Part shown: piece after piece, positions 33,939-58,678 of the stretch
Position numbering within the stretch: position 1 is the first letter of the stretch
Layout: each line of letters begins with the position of its first letter
From: Elizabethkingia occulta
GTDB lineage: Bacteria > Bacteroidota > Bacteroidia > Flavobacteriales > Weeksellaceae
DNA: 64,000 nt
Reading direction: 5' to 3'
Assembly: GCF_002023715.1 (NCBI RefSeq)
Contig: NZ_MAHX01000005.1
Location: forward strand, 62,001 to 126,000
Position numbers and translations under genes: made by a program
Notes under the pieces: generated by a model
What the model was told of the DNA's origin: nothing
The model's database searches: none
Seen by the model: only the letters and a program-made list of their open reading frames with translations

Positions 33939-35228
33939 TTAATTATGTTTTATAAATGCTTTTATCTGCTGAAAATCTACGGGGAACAGTGTTGCTACTT
34001 TTTCCTTTTTTCCAAAAGCTAAAAGCTTTTCCGGAACCTCAATCTTTTCCAAAATGCTTTCTTCCACAGTTTCTATAAATTTTGCAGGATGAGCAGTTTC
34101 TAGTAAAATACCATTAAAATCTTCCTGTTGTTCTTTTTGGTATTGTACTAATCCAAGATAGGCAACAGCGCCGTGCGGATCCAAAAGATAACCAGATTCT
34201 TTATATACTTTCTGAACTGTAGCTTTTGTCTCTTCATCGGTAAAGTAATAGCCAGATATAATCTTTCTGAATTTAGCAACATCTTCCTGAAACAAATCTT
34301 TCATTCTTTCAAAATTGCTTGGATTTCCTACATCCATAGCGTTGCTGACAGTAGAAAGAGATGGTCTGGCTTCGTATGTGCCACTCTCTAGATACTGAGG
34401 TACAACATTGTTGATATTGGTAGAAGCGATAAAGCGATCCACCGGCAATCCCATTTTATAAGCGAGTAGTCCCGCTGTAAGATTCCCGAAGTTTCCGCTT
34501 GGTACACTAAAGACAATCTTTTTATTCTCTTTTTTTAGTTGTGCATAAGCCCAGAAATAGTAAAAGCTCTGTGGGATAAGCCTTGCAATATTAATACTAT
34601 TGGCAGAAGTTACCTGATGTTCCTGTAATTCTTCATCGGCTAAAAGTTGTTTGGCAAGCGCCTGACAATCGTCGAAAGTTCCCTCGATTTCCAATGCTTT
34701 TATATTGCCTCCCCATGTTGTAAGCTGCTTTTCCTGCAAGGGACTTACTTTACCTTTAGGATACAGAATATAGACATTAATTCCTGGTACATTGTAGAAG
34801 CCTGCTGCAACAGCACTACCCGTATCTCCGGAAGTTGCTGCAATTACCTTCATAGCGTTTCCATCTGCATAATAGGACATCAGTCGCGCCATAAACCTTG
34901 CCCCCACATCTTTAAATGCTAACGTAGGACCATGGAAAAGCTCTAAACTGTAAATGTTATGATGAACCGGCACTACTGGAATATCAAAGTTGAGAACCTC
35001 ATCGATCATTTCCTTTAAAACCTCATCCGGAACAGAATCTTCTAAAAATAACTTTGCTACTTCAAAGCCAATTTCCGGCAAAGATTTATTCTCAATATTT
35101 TCAAAAAAAGATGCAGGTAATTGCGGGATATATGCCGGCATATAGAGCCCGCCATCATCTGCTAAGCCATTGAGTACGGCTTGTTGTATATTGACACTGT
35201 GTTTTCCTCTTGTGGAATAATATTTCAT
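33939..35228 (-). CDS. thrC: Threonine synthase
   Basis: This 429-residue PLP enzyme converts O-phosphohomoserine to threonine, the last step of the pathway. The N-terminal MKYYSTRGKHSVNIQQAVLN is typical, the PLP lysine is K106 in HGPTLAFKDVGARFM, and phosphate binding is in ATSGDTGSAVAAGF. FSVPSGNFGNLTAGLLA is the conserved middle segment. It is the third gene of thrA-thrB-thrC on the minus strand, 18 bases after thrB. The order A-B-C and the leader upstream match the classical threonine operon. Confidence 0.95.
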   Translation of the reverse strand: MKYYSTRGKHSVNIQQAVLNGLADDGGLYMPAYIPQLPASFFENIENKSLPEIGFEVAKLFLEDSVPDEVLKEMIDEVLNFDIPVVPVHHNIYSLELFHGPTLAFKDVGARFMARLMSYYADGNAMKVIAATSGDTGSAVAAGFYNVPGINVYILYPKGKVSPLQEKQLTTWGGNIKALEIEGTFDDCQALAKQLLADEELQEHQVTSANSINIARLIPQSFYYFWAYAQLKKENKKIVFSVPSGNFGNLTAGLLAYKMGLPVDRFIASTNINNVVPQYLESGTYEARPSLSTVSNAMDVGNPSNFERMKDLFQEDVAKFRKIISGYYFTDEETKATVQKVYKESGYLLDPHGAVAYLGLVQYQKEQQEDFNGILLETAHPAKFIETVEESILEKIEVPEKLLAFGKKEKVATLFPVDFQQIKAFIKHN

Positions 35229-35246: not shown

Positions 35247-36173
35247 TTATAGTATTACTGCTCCTTCATTATTGATTTTAGTAACTAAAGATTCACAACT
35301 TATATTCTGAGCTGAAAGTAGCTTGTGAAGTTCGATAGCAATTTTTTCGGCTTCATCTTTATTTTTACATAAAGCAAATACAGAAGGCCCAGAACCTGAA
35401 ATTCCAAATCCAATTGCATTATGATTAAGTGCTGTCTGCTTCATTTCAGCAAAATAAGGAATCAGCATAGAGCGGATCGGCTCTATAATTACATCTTTCA
35501 TGCTGCGACCGATAAGATCAGTATCATTTGTACAAAAACCCGCCACAAGACCAGCTACATTCCCCCACTGCTCCACAGCTTTCTTCAATGGAACCTGCTG
35601 ACGGATAATTTTTCTGGCTTCTCCTGTTGGTACATCTACATGCGGATGTACAGATACAACATGCAGATCCATTTCAGTAGGAAGTTTGACAACATCCAAA
35701 GGTTCATAACTGCGAATAAGAACCAAACCACCTAATAAAGATGGAGCAACATTGTCTGCATGAGCATTTCCGGAAGCAAGCCGCTCTCCTTCCATAGCCA
35801 AAGGCAGAAGTTCCTGTCGGGATAATGGATTGTCAAATAATTCGTTTACAGCTACTAATGCTCCTACACTACTGGCAGCACTAGAACCTAAACCGCTATT
35901 CAGAGGCATCTTTTTGTATAATTCTATATCAACACCCTGATTGGAGTCTATCTTTTCTAAAAACAGATTCACCACATGTCCAACCACATTTTTTTCGGCA
36001 TCAAGCGGTAACTTTCCCTGGTCACCTTCTATTTTTGTAATTAGCGTTTTATTACTGTTGTTGAATGATACAACAACTTCATCTCCCGGATTATCTATAG
36101 CAAAGCCTAATACATCGTAACCACATACTACATTGGCTACTGTTGCAGGGGCATAACATTTTATTTTTTTCAT
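35247..36173 (-). CDS. thrB: Homoserine kinase
   Basis: This 308-residue GHMP-family kinase phosphorylates homoserine with ATP. The N-terminal APATVANVVCGYDVLGFA and the ATP-binding loop PLNSGLGSSAASSVG (about residues 90-104) are the GHMP motifs, and GFGISGSGPSVFALC is motif 3. All are intact and the length is normal. It lies between thrA (113 bases upstream) and thrC (18 bases downstream). The gap before it contains an imperfect AT-rich inverted repeat but no clear promoter. Confidence 0.95.
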   Translation of the reverse strand: MKKIKCYAPATVANVVCGYDVLGFAIDNPGDEVVVSFNNSNKTLITKIEGDQGKLPLDAEKNVVGHVVNLFLEKIDSNQGVDIELYKKMPLNSGLGSSAASSVGALVAVNELFDNPLSRQELLPLAMEGERLASGNAHADNVAPSLLGGLVLIRSYEPLDVVKLPTEMDLHVVSVHPHVDVPTGEARKIIRQQVPLKKAVEQWGNVAGLVAGFCTNDTDLIGRSMKDVIIEPIRSMLIPYFAEMKQTALNHNAIGFGISGSGPSVFALCKNKDEAEKIAIELHKLLSAQNISCESLVTKINNEGAVIL

Positions 36174-38762: not shown

Positions 38763-38792
38763 AAAAAAAGCCTTTCTGAATCTCAGAAAGGC
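38763..38792 (-). terminator. Attenuator terminator of the threonine operon
   Basis: On the minus strand GCCTTTCTGA-GAT-TCAGAAAGGC is a perfect 10-bp stem followed by seven T. It starts 25 bases after the stop of the leader peptide and ends 25 bases before thrA. Its 5' arm can instead pair with CAGAAGG at 38841-38835 inside the leader coding region (7 bp with one bulged T), giving a competing antiterminator. Confidence 0.88.
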
Positions 38793-38817
38793 CTTGTGTA
38801 ATTTATATTTTTTGTCG

Positions 38818-38898
38818 TCAAATACTAATACAACCCTTCTGCGGCAATTGAATAATTGTCGTTGTGGAAGTGGATGTAATAATAGTATTTACTCTCAT
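38818..38898 (-). CDS. thrL: Threonine operon leader peptide (attenuator peptide)
   Basis: This 26-codon reading frame begins MRVNTIITSTSTTTIIQLP and ends GCISI before TGA. It has 6 Thr and 6 Ile codons, with TIITSTSTTTII between codons 5 and 16. That is the composition of threonine-operon leaders of enterobacteria, where a stalled ribosome at Thr or Ile codons prevents termination. Codons 12-13 (38865-38861 and next base) overlap ACAAC, which can pair with GTTGT at 38834-38830; stalling there would free CAGAAGG to form the antiterminator. It is too short for ordinary gene calling. The sequence evidence is strong; expression is inferred. Confidence 0.88.
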   Translation of the reverse strand: MRVNTIITSTSTTTIIQLPQKGCISI

Positions 38899-38917: not shown

Positions 38918-38947
38918 TAAAAGTATAGACAAAAAATGATTCCACAA
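38918..38947 (-). promoter_or_regulatory. Probable promoter of the threonine operon
   Basis: On the minus strand TTG (38947-38945) is followed after 19 bases by TACTTTTA (38925-38918), close to the Bacteroidetes -33 TTG / -7 TAnnTTTG pair with the last base changed. Transcription would begin about 15 bases before the leader-peptide ATG. Confidence 0.55.
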
Positions 38948-39008: not shown

Positions 39009-40358
39009 TTAGTTATATCCGGGGTTCTGAATGAGTTTTGGATTCACCTGCATTTCTCTTACAGGTATTGGGAAAACTAATTTATCACTATTCCACTGTA
39101 AGGAGCCTACAGAACCTTTAGTTCTTTTTATATCATGCAAAAGAAAACCTTCAAAAGCTAATTCTTTTCTTCTCTCCATCAGAATATCATCTAATGATAC
39201 TGAGCTTAATATTGTGGCTTTGGCTCTGTTTCTTATGGTATTAATATCATCTAAAGGAACAGCTCCTAAGGAAGTGTTTTCTCTGAAATTAGATTCGGCT
39301 CTTATCAGATATATTTCGGCAAGTCTTATTACATGGAGATTTCCAAATCTGTTTGTGTATTTACTGGTAAGTTTGTCATCGTAAGGATTGAGATAATAAA
39401 ATGAGCCTCTTATATCATTTGCCTCGAATAAATTAAGGAAATCATCTTTCAGAGCAATATCTCCGCCACGTCCACCATTGGCTTCAGATGCATAAAACGT
39501 TATAAGATCATTGATCCCGGATTGGGAAGTTACTTGTATGGCAAACAGATCTTCCGGAGTATTTTCAGAGGTGTTGAATATATCTTTGTAATTGGGTATT
39601 AGGCTTTTTCCACTATTAGTGATAATATCATGAGCCATATCCCGGGCTTTCTTATAATCTCCTTTTTGTAAGTATACTCTTGCAAGTAATGCTTTTGCCG
39701 AATAAACATCGGCGTAATAAGAATTATTTACAGGTATTACTGTAATGGCATCTGTAAGATCCTTTATAACCTGAGTGTATATTTCTTCTACTGTACTTCT
39801 GGGAACGGATAAGTTTCCGTTATAATTAATTTTTCCTGAGAGAATCAAGGGTACACCAAGTTGGGTATTGTTGATTCCTTCTATATATGCTTTACCATAG
39901 TAACGCACCAATTCAAAATAGTTTATAGCCCGTAGAAATTTAGCTTCGCCCTCTATCCTTTTTCTATCGTTTTCAATAGTTATTATATTCAAATTGTCAA
40001 GGATCAAATTAGTCCCGAATATAACTTTGTATGCAGTACGCCATGAATCTCTTACATAAACATTATCGGATATTATATTCTTACTATAAATAGTACGAAG
40101 ATCAGGATAAGTCCCAAACCATGACAAATAACCTGAGTCCCCCAGCAAGTCAGCATACATTTGCAAGTTGCCACCGAATAGATCCGACTTACCAGTATTG
40201 GCATATGCACCTATCAGTATATTGTTTATATTTTCCGGTGTAGATACAGCCTTTTCAGTTGTTATACTTTGTTCAGGATTGATATCTAGCTCTCTATTGC
40301 AAGAGATGAAAAATAATAACCCGAACAAGCCTAAAATAATATATTTAATACTTTTCAT
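39009..40358 (-). CDS. SusD/RagB-family nutrient-binding lipoprotein
   Basis: This 449-residue outer-membrane surface lipoprotein forms the lid of a SusC channel and binds the imported nutrient. The lipobox is GLLFFISCNRE (Cys about residue 20). The tetratricopeptide-like helical core contains FLRAINYFELVRYYG, the conserved SusD helix, and the C-terminal SusD motif has MERRKELAFEG and PIPVREMQVNPKLIQNPGY. It is the last gene of the isoaspartyl peptidase-cyanophycinase-SusC-SusD unit, 11 bases after susC. The threonine promoter follows directly, with no strong terminator between. Confidence 0.92.
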   Translation of the reverse strand: MKSIKYIILGLFGLLFFISCNRELDINPEQSITTEKAVSTPENINNILIGAYANTGKSDLFGGNLQMYADLLGDSGYLSWFGTYPDLRTIYSKNIISDNVYVRDSWRTAYKVIFGTNLILDNLNIITIENDRKRIEGEAKFLRAINYFELVRYYGKAYIEGINNTQLGVPLILSGKINYNGNLSVPRSTVEEIYTQVIKDLTDAITVIPVNNSYYADVYSAKALLARVYLQKGDYKKARDMAHDIITNSGKSLIPNYKDIFNTSENTPEDLFAIQVTSQSGINDLITFYASEANGGRGGDIALKDDFLNLFEANDIRGSFYYLNPYDDKLTSKYTNRFGNLHVIRLAEIYLIRAESNFRENTSLGAVPLDDINTIRNRAKATILSSVSLDDILMERRKELAFEGFLLHDIKRTKGSVGSLQWNSDKLVFPIPVREMQVNPKLIQNPGYN

Positions 40359-40369
40359 TTTTAATTGTT

Positions 40370-43156
40370 TTAGAAGTTAACATTAAGACCGAAGGTAAAT
40401 GTTCTGGCTGGCGGAGCCGAATAAAAGGTTGCACCACCTCCACCTCTTCCTGTATCTGCTAAAGCTTCAGGATCATAACCTTTGTATTTTGTAAATGTCA
40501 GAAGGTTGATTGCTGACAAATAGATTCTCAGCTTATTGACACCTAGCGATTTTACTAAGTTTTTATCGAATGTATAGCCGAGACTAAAATTTCTTAATCT
40601 TATAAAATCTCTCTTTTCAAGATATCTGGTAGATTCCTGAGTCCCATTTTCTTCACCTAATCTGGCCTGAGGTACATTGGTAATATCACCAGGCTTTTTC
40701 CATCTATTCATCTGATCAGCAGTTTGATTATCGAACCAGCTGCCGGCTGTGGACATGAATTTTCCACCGGAATTGTACATACTTGCTCCAAATTCTCCGT
40801 ATAAAGTGAAGGATAAATCAAAATTTTTATATTCCAGGGTATTGGTAAGACCTCCTATCCATACAGGAGTAAAAGTACCAACAACAATTCTGTTGGCCTG
40901 ACTGTATTGATTGGTAGTAGATTTGTCTAATGTACCATCTGGTTTTAGTATATTTTTGTAATACAACGCATCTCCATTGGCCGGATCTACGCCAGCATAT
41001 TCTGCCAAATAGAAAGAGGTTAATCTCTCACCAACTCTTAGTATGGTATTTCCTATAATCTGATCAGCATTATTGTCTGGTAATGCTGTTATCTTATTAT
41101 CGTTTCTGGCAATATTAAAGCTGGTGCTCCATGTGAAATTTTCTTTTCTGAAATTTTGGGTATTTAGTACTACTTCAAAGCCTTTGTTATTCATATCTCC
41201 AACATTTCTGTATATACTGGCATATCCTGATGTGTAAGGAATATTCTGCTGGAATAATAGACCGCTTGTCTTTTTATTGTAATAATCCAGTTCTCCTGAA
41301 ATTCTGTTGTTGAATAAGCCAAAATCTACACCGATATCTGTCTGGGTAGATTTTTCCCAGGTCAAATCTGCATTAGCAGGTTGGAAGGGCTCTATCCCGG
41401 GGATTTGTTTATATTTAGTGGCTTGCCACTGGTCTCTTGCTGCAAAATCTCCTATTTCAGCATTTCCGGTTTTTCCCCAGCTTGCTCTTAGTTTTAGCAA
41501 GGAAAAAGTATTGGATTCCGACAAAAAACTTTCTTTGGAAATTATCCATCCGGCGGAGAAAGCTGGAAATGTCCCATATCGATTTGACTGCCCAAATCTG
41601 GATGAGCCATCTCTGCGTATAGAGCCTTTTAATAAATATTTGCCTTTGTAGTCATAATTTACTCTGGCAAAATAAGAAAAAAATGTATATTCACTAGCTT
41701 CGCCTTTTCCTTCGGTAATCTCCCCTGCACTATTTATATTCTGAAAATCATCCGAAGGGAATCTTATACCTGTTACACTTCCGAATTCTCTTCTGTTTTT
41801 ATTGTATTCTGTACCTGCTACTACACTAATATTGTTGGAATCAAACTTTAGATTATAGGAAAAGTAATTGGTGAAAACTAAGTTTTCGGTATCTACTCGG
41901 GAATTATAAGCATAACCATCTGTAGACATCTGTGGTGCTTTTCTTCCTCTGTAGTTCTTCTCCTTCTGATTATAATAGTCGTAGCCTAAATCTGAGTTAA
42001 AAGCTAAGTTTTTCAGTATTTTATATTCTGCGGATAATTTACCTGTTATCCTTTTTACTAAAGTATTATAACTGGCATATTTATCTTCCAGTAGAAAGTT
42101 TGCATAGGTTGTTCCGGCAAAGGGCTCTCCATCAATAAAAGCAGGTGATATAGGAGCTTGTGCTACAGCCTGCATAGGGGTGGTAAATTCATTGTCATTT
42201 GCAACTCTTTCTATATCTGTCCTGGAAAAGCCTAAATTCATGGCTAATTTTAATTTATCAGTAACCTTAGCACTTACATTAAGCCTTGCAGTATTCCTTC
42301 CCAAATCATTTCCTCGGATAATACCTTTGCTGTCATTGTTGGATGCGGTGAACATATAGTTATAATTATCATCTCCACCCGAAACAGAGAAATCAGCATC
42401 CCGTACAGAGCCTTGCCGGAAAATATATTTCTGCCAATTGGTATCTATAGCTCTGTTTCTCCAGTCCGTATTATTAGAATATCTGTTGAATCTGCGGATT
42501 ACAAAATCTTCATCATTTACATTTCTTCCAGCTTCCAGCAATAATTCTACATACTCTTTTGCATTTAAGAATCTCACTTTATTGGTAGGACTGCTAAATC
42601 CCTGAGAAACATTAAAATTGAGCTTTGGTTTTCCTTTCTTTCCGGTTTTAGTAGTAATCAGCACTACTCCATTGCTCCCCCGGGCACCGTATATAGCAGC
42701 AGAAGAGGCATCTTTCAGTATTTCTACAGATTCAATTTCCGAGGCACTTAGTGTCACCAATGGATTAACAGGAGCAGCGTTTGTAGATTCATCACGGTTA
42801 ATCATTGGGATTCCGTCTATTACATATAGCGGACCAGTACCTGCACCTATACTTGCAGATCCGCGGATGTTGACATTGAATCCGGCTTCCAACTTGCCAT
42901 TGATCTGGCTAATTTGTACGCCAGCAGCTTTTCCTACAAGTGCATTTTGGAAGTTGGCATTAGGAATTTCTTTAATAGATTCTGTGCTTATCTTAGCAAC
43001 ATTATCTGTCATTCTGGATTTGGTTGACTTTCCATAGCCGACAACTATTACTTCATCAATTTTCTTTTCTTTAAGTAGGGTATCTTTTTTCTGACCATAG
43101 ACACACGTTCCTATAAAAAATAATGATGCAGTAAATACTTTGTAATTTACTTTCAT
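40370..43156 (-). CDS. SusC/RagA-family TonB-dependent outer-membrane transporter
   Basis: This 928-residue TonB-linked beta-barrel has a signal peptide ending CVYGQ. It goes directly into the TonB-box-like KKIDEVIVVGYGKS, lacking the N-terminal carboxypeptidase-like domain found in many SusC proteins. The plug contains SASIGAGTGPLYVIDGIP and SSAAIYGARGSNGVVLITTK, both SusC signatures. The barrel ends in ARTFTFGLNVNF with a terminal phenylalanine, as expected for BAM insertion. It pairs with the adjacent SusD. The upstream cyanophycinase and isoaspartyl peptidase suggest a peptide ligand rather than a glycan (inference). Confidence 0.93.
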   Translation of the reverse strand: MKVNYKVFTASLFFIGTCVYGQKKDTLLKEKKIDEVIVVGYGKSTKSRMTDNVAKISTESIKEIPNANFQNALVGKAAGVQISQINGKLEAGFNVNIRGSASIGAGTGPLYVIDGIPMINRDESTNAAPVNPLVTLSASEIESVEILKDASSAAIYGARGSNGVVLITTKTGKKGKPKLNFNVSQGFSSPTNKVRFLNAKEYVELLLEAGRNVNDEDFVIRRFNRYSNNTDWRNRAIDTNWQKYIFRQGSVRDADFSVSGGDDNYNYMFTASNNDSKGIIRGNDLGRNTARLNVSAKVTDKLKLAMNLGFSRTDIERVANDNEFTTPMQAVAQAPISPAFIDGEPFAGTTYANFLLEDKYASYNTLVKRITGKLSAEYKILKNLAFNSDLGYDYYNQKEKNYRGRKAPQMSTDGYAYNSRVDTENLVFTNYFSYNLKFDSNNISVVAGTEYNKNRREFGSVTGIRFPSDDFQNINSAGEITEGKGEASEYTFFSYFARVNYDYKGKYLLKGSIRRDGSSRFGQSNRYGTFPAFSAGWIISKESFLSESNTFSLLKLRASWGKTGNAEIGDFAARDQWQATKYKQIPGIEPFQPANADLTWEKSTQTDIGVDFGLFNNRISGELDYYNKKTSGLLFQQNIPYTSGYASIYRNVGDMNNKGFEVVLNTQNFRKENFTWSTSFNIARNDNKITALPDNNADQIIGNTILRVGERLTSFYLAEYAGVDPANGDALYYKNILKPDGTLDKSTTNQYSQANRIVVGTFTPVWIGGLTNTLEYKNFDLSFTLYGEFGASMYNSGGKFMSTAGSWFDNQTADQMNRWKKPGDITNVPQARLGEENGTQESTRYLEKRDFIRLRNFSLGYTFDKNLVKSLGVNKLRIYLSAINLLTFTKYKGYDPEALADTGRGGGGATFYSAPPARTFTFGLNVNF

Positions 43157-43192
43157 ATCAAGTGGTTTTTATTGTGTTGATTAGTATATATA

Positions 43193-43209
43193 CAGCCAGA
43201 TAATGGCTG
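43193..43209. other. Hairpin between the cyanophycinase and susC genes
   Basis: CAGCCA-gataa-TGGCTG is a 6-bp stem without a T-run, in the 140-base gap before susC. It could protect or separate the susCD part of the message rather than terminate it. Confidence 0.35.
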
Positions 43210-43296
43210 CGAAATAAGTATCAAAACTGTTTTTCATGTAAATAATATCCCCTTAGCAATAGCAGAAGAGGTTATTAAATTAGTATAGAGCAGATA

Positions 43297-44127
43297 TTAT
43301 AATTTAAATCTTTCTCCGTTCAGATAAATGTCCAATACAATAGCTTTTGCACCCAGTTTATCTTTCAGGCTGGATTTGGATTGTTTAGGGTTTTTAAAAA
43401 CAATTACCTGAGCTTTTCCTACAACTTCTGCTTCTCCATTTTTTACAAGTATGGCCGTAGATTCATCTATACCAATTCCTTTTAATTTGGGATTGTCTAT
43501 AACAAGAGATAGCAATCTGTTGTATCTGCTTCTTATAATGAAATGCTGGTCTATAACAGCAGAATTAATAAAGCCAAGTCCTTTTTGGGTTTCGACATTA
43601 TTAGTTTCTATATTATCGAAAGTACTATTGTATTCTTTATGCCTGAGTTGATTTCCGGTAATCATAATCTCACTCATTACAGCAGCTCCGGCACTGGTTC
43701 CTGCAATCATATTCCCATTGAAATAAGATTCTTTTATTATGTTCTTTACTTCCGGGTAAGAATTGATTAGTTCCATAAATTTAGTCTGATCGCCACCACT
43801 AATGAAAATTAGTTTAGCTTTCTTGAGAGAATCTAGTCTGGGTTTTGAAAGTTTTTCGCCTTTAGTAAAATAATAGTTAAGAGGTTTCAGGATTCTTTTT
43901 TCAAAATCTTCAGAAGTATAAATAAATGAAGAATCCGGAATAGCACTAGCTTGTGGAAAAATGGCTACATACTCTCCTTTTTTTAATCCGGCTTCTTTTA
44001 CCATTCTGTCAATGAGAAAATCAGGGCTGTCTCCGCCTCCAATTATAAACAGTTTACCTTTTGATGTCTGGGCTGGTACTAATCCATAAATGAGAATTAA
44101 GATTAAAATAAATGTATTTTTCATCAT
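43297..44127 (-). CDS. Exported cyanophycinase-type S51 peptidase
   Basis: This 276-residue peptidase of family S51 has a signal peptide (about residues 1-20, ending LVPAQ), so it acts outside the cytoplasm. The nucleophile elbow is GTSAGAAVMSE, with the serine at S145. FIIGGGDSPDFLIDRM and FISGGDQTKFMEL are the conserved cyanophycinase strands. Cyanophycinases cut multi-L-arginyl-poly-L-aspartate into beta-Asp-Arg dipeptides. The length is like intracellular CphB, but with an export signal. The isoaspartyl peptidase gene ends 4 bases upstream. Peptidase E (alpha-aspartyl dipeptidase) is a family relative, but the motif context fits cyanophycinase better. Confidence 0.85.
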   Translation of the reverse strand: MMKNTFILILILIYGLVPAQTSKGKLFIIGGGDSPDFLIDRMVKEAGLKKGEYVAIFPQASAIPDSSFIYTSEDFEKRILKPLNYYFTKGEKLSKPRLDSLKKAKLIFISGGDQTKFMELINSYPEVKNIIKESYFNGNMIAGTSAGAAVMSEIMITGNQLRHKEYNSTFDNIETNNVETQKGLGFINSAVIDQHFIIRSRYNRLLSLVIDNPKLKGIGIDESTAILVKNGEAEVVGKAQVIVFKNPKQSKSSLKDKLGAKAIVLDIYLNGERFKL

Positions 44128-44131
44128 GTAC

Positions 44132-45136
44132 TTATTTATAAATTTCTACTTCGATTTCACCTTTATTGGTTATGGCACCTCTATACATGCCTTCGGTATT
44201 AAAGATCATTGCCATATTTCCATTCATGTCCAAAGCAATTAGGCCACCGTCTCCACCCATATTTTCAATTTCAGACATTACTTCCTGTATAGCAGTCTTT
44301 ACATCTTTATTCTGATATTCATACTTGGCGGCTACAGTTCTGGCTGCTGCTGTTCGGATGTAAAATTCACCCCATCCTGTTCCTGATACACCTATATTCT
44401 TGTCAGCGTAGGTTCCGGCTCCAATAATGGGTGAATCTCCTACTCTTCCATATCTTTTATTGGTCATTCCTCCTGTTGAGGTTCCGGCTGCCAGATTACC
44501 ATCCTTATCTAATGCAACACAGCCTACTGTTCCAAACTTCTTGTCAATCTGGTAATGGACAGGATATTGTTGATTAGAAGCATTGGGCTGATTTACTTTT
44601 AACTCTGCCTTTTTGACTTTCTGAAGAGCATCCCATCTGTGTTTTGTCCAAAAGTATTTTGGATTTACAATTTCTAATTTCTGAGTTTTTGCAAATTGTT
44701 CAGCTCCTTTTCCCATTAACATAACATGCTCAGATTTCTGCATAACAGCTATGGCTGCTTTTATAGGATTTTTAATAGTAGTAACTCCAGCTACAGCACC
44801 GGCTGTTTTATCTTTGCCATACATGATGGAAGCATCGAGTTCGTTCCTACCATCATTAGTAAAAACAGCACCTTTGCCTGCATTAAAAAGCGGACTATCT
44901 TCCAAAATTACAATTGCAGATTCTACAGCTTCTACAGCAGTTCTTCCTTGTTGCAGTTTTTCATAAGCTTTATATAAAGCTTCTTTTATTTTTTCTTTGT
45001 ATTGTTGTTCTAGTTCAGGTGGCATATCTTTTTTCAGAATAGTACCGGCTCCGCCATGAATGACGACAATGTATCTTTTTTGTGCATGAGAAAGCAGTGA
45101 AAGACAACACACAAATAGTAATGTAACTTTTTTCAT
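44132..45136 (-). CDS. Exported isoaspartyl peptidase / plant-type L-asparaginase
   Basis: This 334-residue Ntn-hydrolase has a signal peptide (about residues 1-18, MKKVTLLFVCCLSLLSHAQ). It self-cleaves before the catalytic threonine T203 in FGTVGCVALD. Other family motifs are VIHGGAGTI, FNAGKGAVFTNDGRNELDAS, GTSTGGMTNKRYGRVGDSP and GAGTYAD. Such enzymes cleave beta-aspartyl dipeptides, including the beta-Asp-Arg product of cyanophycinase, and often asparagine. It is the first gene of the four-gene operon and has its own upstream region with a conserved element at 45232-45264. Periplasmic location is predicted. Confidence 0.9.
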   Translation of the reverse strand: MKKVTLLFVCCLSLLSHAQKRYIVVIHGGAGTILKKDMPPELEQQYKEKIKEALYKAYEKLQQGRTAVEAVESAIVILEDSPLFNAGKGAVFTNDGRNELDASIMYGKDKTAGAVAGVTTIKNPIKAAIAVMQKSEHVMLMGKGAEQFAKTQKLEIVNPKYFWTKHRWDALQKVKKAELKVNQPNASNQQYPVHYQIDKKFGTVGCVALDKDGNLAAGTSTGGMTNKRYGRVGDSPIIGAGTYADKNIGVSGTGWGEFYIRTAAARTVAAKYEYQNKDVKTAIQEVMSEIENMGGDGGLIALDMNGNMAMIFNTEGMYRGAITNKGEIEVEIYK

Positions 45137-58588: not shown

Positions 58589-58636
58589 TTTAAAATTATT
58601 TTAGGTTCTCCTACTCTATAAGCTTTTCGGATTTCG

Positions 58637-58678
58637 CTACTTAGTAAATGCTCTTTGTAATTCGAGCTTTGTAAGTAG
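58637..58678. promoter_or_regulatory. Inverted repeat in the divergent region between the peptide and XRE genes
   Basis: CTACTTA (58637-58643) and TAAGTAG (58672-58678) form a 7-base inverted repeat with 28 bases between. It lies between two divergent starts and could be an operator for the adjacent XRE protein. Confidence 0.3.

Follow-up and report, generated by a model that had tools for sequence, protein, structure and literature searches.

The thrABC operon of Elizabethkingia raises the question of how its transcription is controlled, and whether a short reading frame rich in threonine and isoleucine codons, followed by a hairpin immediately upstream of thrA, constitutes a ribosome-mediated transcription attenuator. 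We have addressed this in a window comprising 64,000 nucleotides of Elizabethkingia occulta (contig NZ_MAHX01000005.1, positions 62,001 to 126,000), a genome that falls in the miricola group of the genus and whose ThrA is 99% identical to that of E. miricola. The layout of the region and its modelled folds indicate that thrABC is very probably controlled by such an attenuator, arranged in the manner of thrL. The relevant features are listed in Table 1; they are all on the minus strand, in the order leader frame, terminator, thrA, thrB and thrC.

Table 1. Features of the Elizabethkingia thr leader and operon, in window coordinates.
Feature	Coordinates	Strand	Basis
Promoter-like pair: TTG (38947-38945), 19-nt spacer, TACTTTTA (38925-38918)	38918..38947	(-)	Sequence
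Leader frame, 26 codons plus TGA, MRVNTIITSTSTTTIIQLPQKGCISI	38818..38898	(-)	Sequence; top Thr/Ile score; congeners identical
Control codons 5-16, TIITSTSTTTII, 6 Thr and 4 Ile	38851..38886	(-)	Sequence; Thr run kept across phylum
Segment 2, CAGAAGGG, codons 20-22, antiterminator 5' strand	38834..38841	(-)	Stalled-state fold, pair counts, swap test
Segment 3, CCUUUCUG, terminator 5' arm core, common to antiterminator and terminator	38784..38791	(-)	Sequence, folds, pair counts
Intrinsic terminator, 13-bp stem 38795-38783/38779-38767, GAU loop, seven T 38769-38763	38763..38795	(-)	Fold, -17.4 kcal/mol
thrA, bifunctional aspartate kinase/homoserine dehydrogenase I, 816 aa	36287..38737	(-)	NCBIfam NF006959, 1017 bits
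thrB, homoserine kinase	35247..36173	(-)	NCBIfam NF002288, TIGR00191
thrC, threonine synthase	33939..35228	(-)	NCBIfam TIGR00260, 311 bits

The leader frame, its start and its terminator

In a ranking by Thr and Ile codons of the small frames in the window (ATG start, 8-45 codons, both strands; 994 in all), the leader frame comes first with a score of 13.0, the next best having 10.0. Its Thr codons are at positions 5, 8, 10, 12, 13 and 14 and its Ile codons at positions 6, 7, 15, 16, 24 and 26, and the stop codon is at 38820-38818. The peptide is identical in three congeners and has relatives elsewhere in the phylum. Thr codons predominate in the leaders of all lineages, and Ile codons abound in those of Elizabethkingia and family f3, with few in the run of genus g9. 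The best reading is that threonine is the main signal, with co-control by isoleucine plausible in Elizabethkingia; because the g9 run has few Ile codons, isoleucine is likely to act as a co-signal in certain lineages only. Of the six Ile codons, two are excluded as control codons because they lie behind the pairing segment, the other four preceding segment 2. The original prediction of a Thr/Ile leader stands with respect to the Thr run, which is conserved in the phylum, and is weakened on both of these counts with respect to isoleucine. Outside the Thr/Ile run the residues vary freely except at positions where the RNA is paired. The C-terminal residues are QKG here, RKV in genus g9 and GGR or GGK in family f3, and they are best read as constrained by the pairing of the RNA, and not by any function of the peptide itself.

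The promoter-like pair is close to the Bacteroidota consensus TTG/TAnnTTTG and would place the transcription start around 38911, just ahead of the leader frame. The arrangement TTTG-N16-21-TAnnTT lies ahead of 35 of 59 leaders of the same terminator type as that of the window (type A), compared to 6% of shuffles. The Bacteroidota mostly initiate translation without a Shine-Dalgarno sequence. Adenine is the prevailing base of the leader starts at -1, -3 and -6; at the last two positions, among others, it promotes initiation in F. johnsoniae (PMC6847099). The window's own leader start has A at -1, but C at -3 and G at -6.

The terminator has a core of 10 bp, GCCUUUCUGA/UCAGAAAGGC, which reaches the 13 bp of Table 1 when the A-U and G-U ends are counted. 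The leader RNA (146 nt) folds with z = -5.2 relative to dinucleotide shuffles, and with the ribosome at the stop codon the terminator is predicted to form alone. The anatomy described in the original prediction, with a 26-codon frame containing six Thr and six Ile codons, a 10-bp stem with seven T, and then thrA-thrB-thrC, is confirmed throughout, the gene identities being borne out by the NCBIfam matches. A search of the genome for second copies of the attenuator yielded only a look-alike, a plain terminator at 46669-46620 (minus strand) that is near-identical to the thr terminator and stands behind an unrelated gene.

Upstream of the leader is a SusC/SusD-like pair (43156-39009), on the same strand as the thr operon and ending at 39009. 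Frames resembling a cyanophycinase and an isoaspartyl peptidase, as judged by eye from sequence, are found beside this pair within 39009-45136 (minus strand), and this region is possibly an uptake locus for beta-aspartyl peptide or cyanophycin.

Alternative pairings in the leader RNA

For the stalled state the model left the RNA free between 38847, taking the ribosome to be on the Thr codons, and 38784, taking the polymerase to be just beyond arm 3. In this fold CAGAAGGGU pairs with GCCUUUCUG, together with UGUA/UACA, at -14.4 kcal/mol. The core of the 2:3 pairing is an ungapped helix of 8 bp with one G-U, formed by CAGAAGGG (38841-38834) and CCUUUCUG (38791-38784), and is extended by U38833:G38792 and the UGUA/UACA helix. 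A pairing between a segment in the last codons and the 5' arm of the terminator had been proposed from the outset, and is upheld by the folds, the pair counts and the swap test described below; it is its extent that has changed, to these ungapped 8 bp.

Across 25 sequences from Elizabethkingia and genus g9 the 2:3 core has 99% of its cells paired, compared to 28-66% when one strand is slid against the other. Changes within this group convert A-U to G-U pairs, the outermost pair excepted, and a search for covariation in it found none, because arm 3 is invariant there. In more divergent groups the two sides have both changed and yet match, as in UAGAGAGG/CCUCUCUA (L022), GGAGGAAG/CUUCCUCC (L073), UGGGGG/CCCCCA (L210) and CGGGGC/GUCCCG (L071). 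When segments were swapped among 15 representatives, the sum for their own pairings was -169.1 kcal/mol, compared to -128.7+-7.8 for swapped partners, a value reached in 0 of 50,000 permutations; the representatives are treated without correction for relatedness, and some taken alone are not significant. An earlier version of this test with 10 representatives gave p = 5e-5.

The 1:2 protector pairing is less secure. The minimum free energy fold of the full-length RNA contains it as AAAUACUAU:AUUAGUAUUU with additional shorter helices, and for about half of the representatives 1:2 pairing exceeds that of shuffles. If no ribosome is present and arm 4 has yet to be transcribed, the model favours 2:3 over 1:2. 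The ACAAC:GUUGU helix originally put forward as the 1:2 pairing is absent from the predicted folds. The proposed correspondence to the 1:2, 2:3 and 3:4 logic of E. coli thr attenuation thus holds for the 2:3 and 3:4 stems, which survive two-sided changes in divergent families, and is partly supported for 1:2.

The leader frame of the region has a run of codons specifying the amino acid that the operon makes, and between the leader stop and the first structural gene is an intrinsic terminator that is conserved with the leader. Computed folds, pair counts and the swap test indicate an antiterminator that excludes the terminator and would become available when a ribosome stalls on the control codons. 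Regulation may then proceed as follows. Transcription would begin just before the leader frame. When threonyl-tRNA is charged, the ribosome would pass through the Thr and Ile codons to the stop codon, segment 2 would be masked or pulled back into the 1:2 pairing, and arms 3 and 4 would form the terminator, such that transcription stops before thrA. When threonyl-tRNA is scarce, and here probably isoleucyl-tRNA too, the ribosome would stall on codons 5-16, leaving segment 2 ahead of it open for pairing with segment 3 once this has been made; this predicted and conserved pairing would block the terminator, and thrABC would be transcribed by read-through.

Threonine-codon leaders across the Bacteroidota

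Regions upstream of thrA were taken from throughout the phylum, 230 of which were usable, with a leader called at a frame score of 9 or more. A Thr/Ile-rich leader frame is present in 60.4% of these regions, compared to 0.6% of shuffles. Type A leaders occur in Elizabethkingia, in genera g9, g22 and g29 of its family, and in families f3 and f4 of its class, and in a ThrA tree the proteins from these operons form one clade (clade A; 19 rows, support 100/100), which also includes a few leaderless genomes (genus g17 and G170). Among the 66 regions of clade A, leader and terminator are both present in 55 (6 of which are repeat fetches of the same genome), both absent in 11, and in no region is one present alone. 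There is thus no instance in this clade of a hairpin kept with the Thr/Ile frame lost, the pattern which the original prediction had named as counting against it. Genus g17 has lost the whole device, and the attenuator is therefore not essential. In three regions of genus g9 (L011, L018 and L236) repeats with the palindromic core AGCTCCGTAGGAGCG lie in the leader region, between the terminator or the upstream gene and thrA; in L236 the leader and terminator are gone and the repeats are present.

A different kind of leader is found in a second ThrA clade (clade B), consisting of Flavobacterium, Chryseobacterium-type genera and others. Like that of the window, these leaders contain a run of Thr codons in a short frame immediately upstream of thrA, but here the run takes up the final codons of the frame and enters an ACCCC-loop-GGGGU hairpin at or around the stop codon, followed after 2-14 nt by CATAT, often within CACATAT(A/C)ATCC; the ATCC behind CATAT is conserved. 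The motif is present in 79 thrA upstream regions (e.g. L131:3878-3994, L047:125-241 and L038:114-230) and in none when these are reversed, although the invariance of CATAT in 49 aligned sequences arises by selection, the search pattern itself having required it. A longer pattern occurs once per genome, at thrA, in five genomes of the order. In the genome of the window the motif has one match, which is inside a coding frame and was judged to be due to chance. Nearly all clade B leaders lack a strong intrinsic terminator before thrA; the examples scanned have no Rfam match, and their consensus fold has two pairs only and no covariation. Two contigs with Flavobacterium-like thr operons, L170 and L173, are filed as Klebsiella pneumoniae and Bifidobacterium breve MAGs, and these records are mislabelled or contaminated.

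The family of Elizabethkingia is divided by two well-supported ThrA clades, with Elizabethkingia, g9, g22, g29 and g17 in one, and the Chryseobacterium-type genera g21, g11 and g7 in the other; genus g26 is on both sides. Because the family holds both kinds of leader, each with its own ThrA clade, the thr operon was likely replaced together with its leader in this family. A broader proposal, which we advance tentatively and at slightly less than even chances, is that the Thr-codon leaders of the Bacteroidota are of two kinds that follow the two ThrA clades: the textbook terminator attenuator of the window, and in clade B a new class of ribosome-dependent switch, with a Thr run entering a stop-codon hairpin, CATAT and no strong intrinsic terminator, the family of Elizabethkingia having swapped kinds along with the operon.

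Other explanations of the locus have been considered. The hairpin could be an ordinary terminator for the SusC/SusD-like pair and the Thr/Ile frame a chance occurrence in an AT-rich spacer, as the upstream genes share the strand and end at 39009, and a near-identical hairpin serves as a plain terminator at 46669-46620. We regard this as very unlikely, given that leader and terminator have been retained as a unit in different families, that the frame fits the product of the operon far beyond chance, and that segment 2 tracks arm 3; it is possible that the thr terminator additionally serves upstream termination. It is similarly improbable that the leader acts mainly at another level, with its ribosome controlling translation or Rho-dependent termination, or with the peptide itself being functional. 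The many clade B leaders with Thr codons and no strong terminator suggest that a mode without a terminator operates in the phylum, but in the clade of the window a terminator always accompanies the leader, and the freely varying residues outside the Thr/Ile run argue against a functional peptide.

A structured 5' leader with a terminator is also what would be expected if the terminator were controlled by a T-box, a riboswitch or a protein-binding element ahead of thrA and the frame were incidental. This we consider extremely unlikely: no T-box or riboswitch family matches the stretch at gathering or permissive thresholds, a PyrR site is matched only weakly (22.8 bits, with a cut-off of 54), and the element that is conserved is a frame with codons for the product. 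Control of thrABC by a ribosome-mediated attenuator thus remains the preferred reading.

Other leaders of the genome and known attenuation systems

Other attenuators of the genome were sought gene by gene. hisG is preceded by the leader frame MKFNAVHHHHHHSCNRRVD and a terminator (L197), trpE by a frame starting MKFNTNNTNWWWLSK and a terminator (L199), and ilvD by a GTG-start frame, read by eye and starting VARLVINIIVIIIQ, and a terminator (L198); no leader was found before pheA. When modelled in the stalled state, the his and trp leaders form pairings that resemble an antiterminator. With leader and terminator pairs at his, trp and ilv beside that at thr, attenuation thus looks to be a general device of this flavobacterium. 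Attenuation by ribosome stalling works only if the first ribosome advances in step with RNA polymerase, and the conserved thr leaders, together with those of his, trp and ilv in the same genome, would imply that the two are coupled at these leaders, in a phylum where Shine-Dalgarno initiation is mostly absent. The leaders offer natural reporters for testing coupling in the Bacteroidota, and allow short genes that are easily missed to be found and named across the phylum.

Leader-peptide systems were described by Naville and Gautheret (2010; PMC2965389) as known only in the Proteobacteria and Actinobacteria, in addition to their own finding in the Firmicutes. A transcriptome study of F. psychrophilum (PMC9723704) reports strong clues for leader-peptide attenuation ahead of amino-acid biosynthesis operons, as found here in the same phylum; the conserved elements named in its main text precede pheA and hisG, and thr is not among them. 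The suggestion that attenuation is less well known in Bacteroidetes accordingly makes the leader look newer than it is, attenuation in flavobacteria having already been inferred there. No published thr leader for the Bacteroidota was found in the literature searched, which covered few subscription papers. A survey of attenuation by Lopatovskaya et al. in 2010, a paper cited in PMC4833913, was reportedly broad and may include Bacteroidetes. This kind of attenuation is already known in principle in flavobacteria, and the thr leader adds to it.

The anatomy matches that of E. coli thrL (RF00506), with which the Elizabethkingia leader shares a Thr/Ile-rich peptide, a pairing segment in the last codons, a terminator before thrA and the thrABC order; it differs in having no Shine-Dalgarno start, and no sequence kinship between the leaders is shown. 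E. coli ThrA sits on a very long branch in the ThrA tree, which precludes any claim that the two switches share an ancestor. Rfam has no match at the thr leader at the gathering threshold; the best family for the stretch is Thr_leader (RF00506), matched over its full length (1-118) with 23.5 bits and an E-value of 0.017, below the cut-off of 55, and none of the leaders in the regions scanned clears the cut-off of any Rfam family. By analogy the Elizabethkingia leader would work like thrL, and by the cut-off it is not a member of the Rfam family. The sole Rfam match of the window at the gathering threshold is a DUF805b RNA (RF02914) at 58608-58640 on the minus strand.
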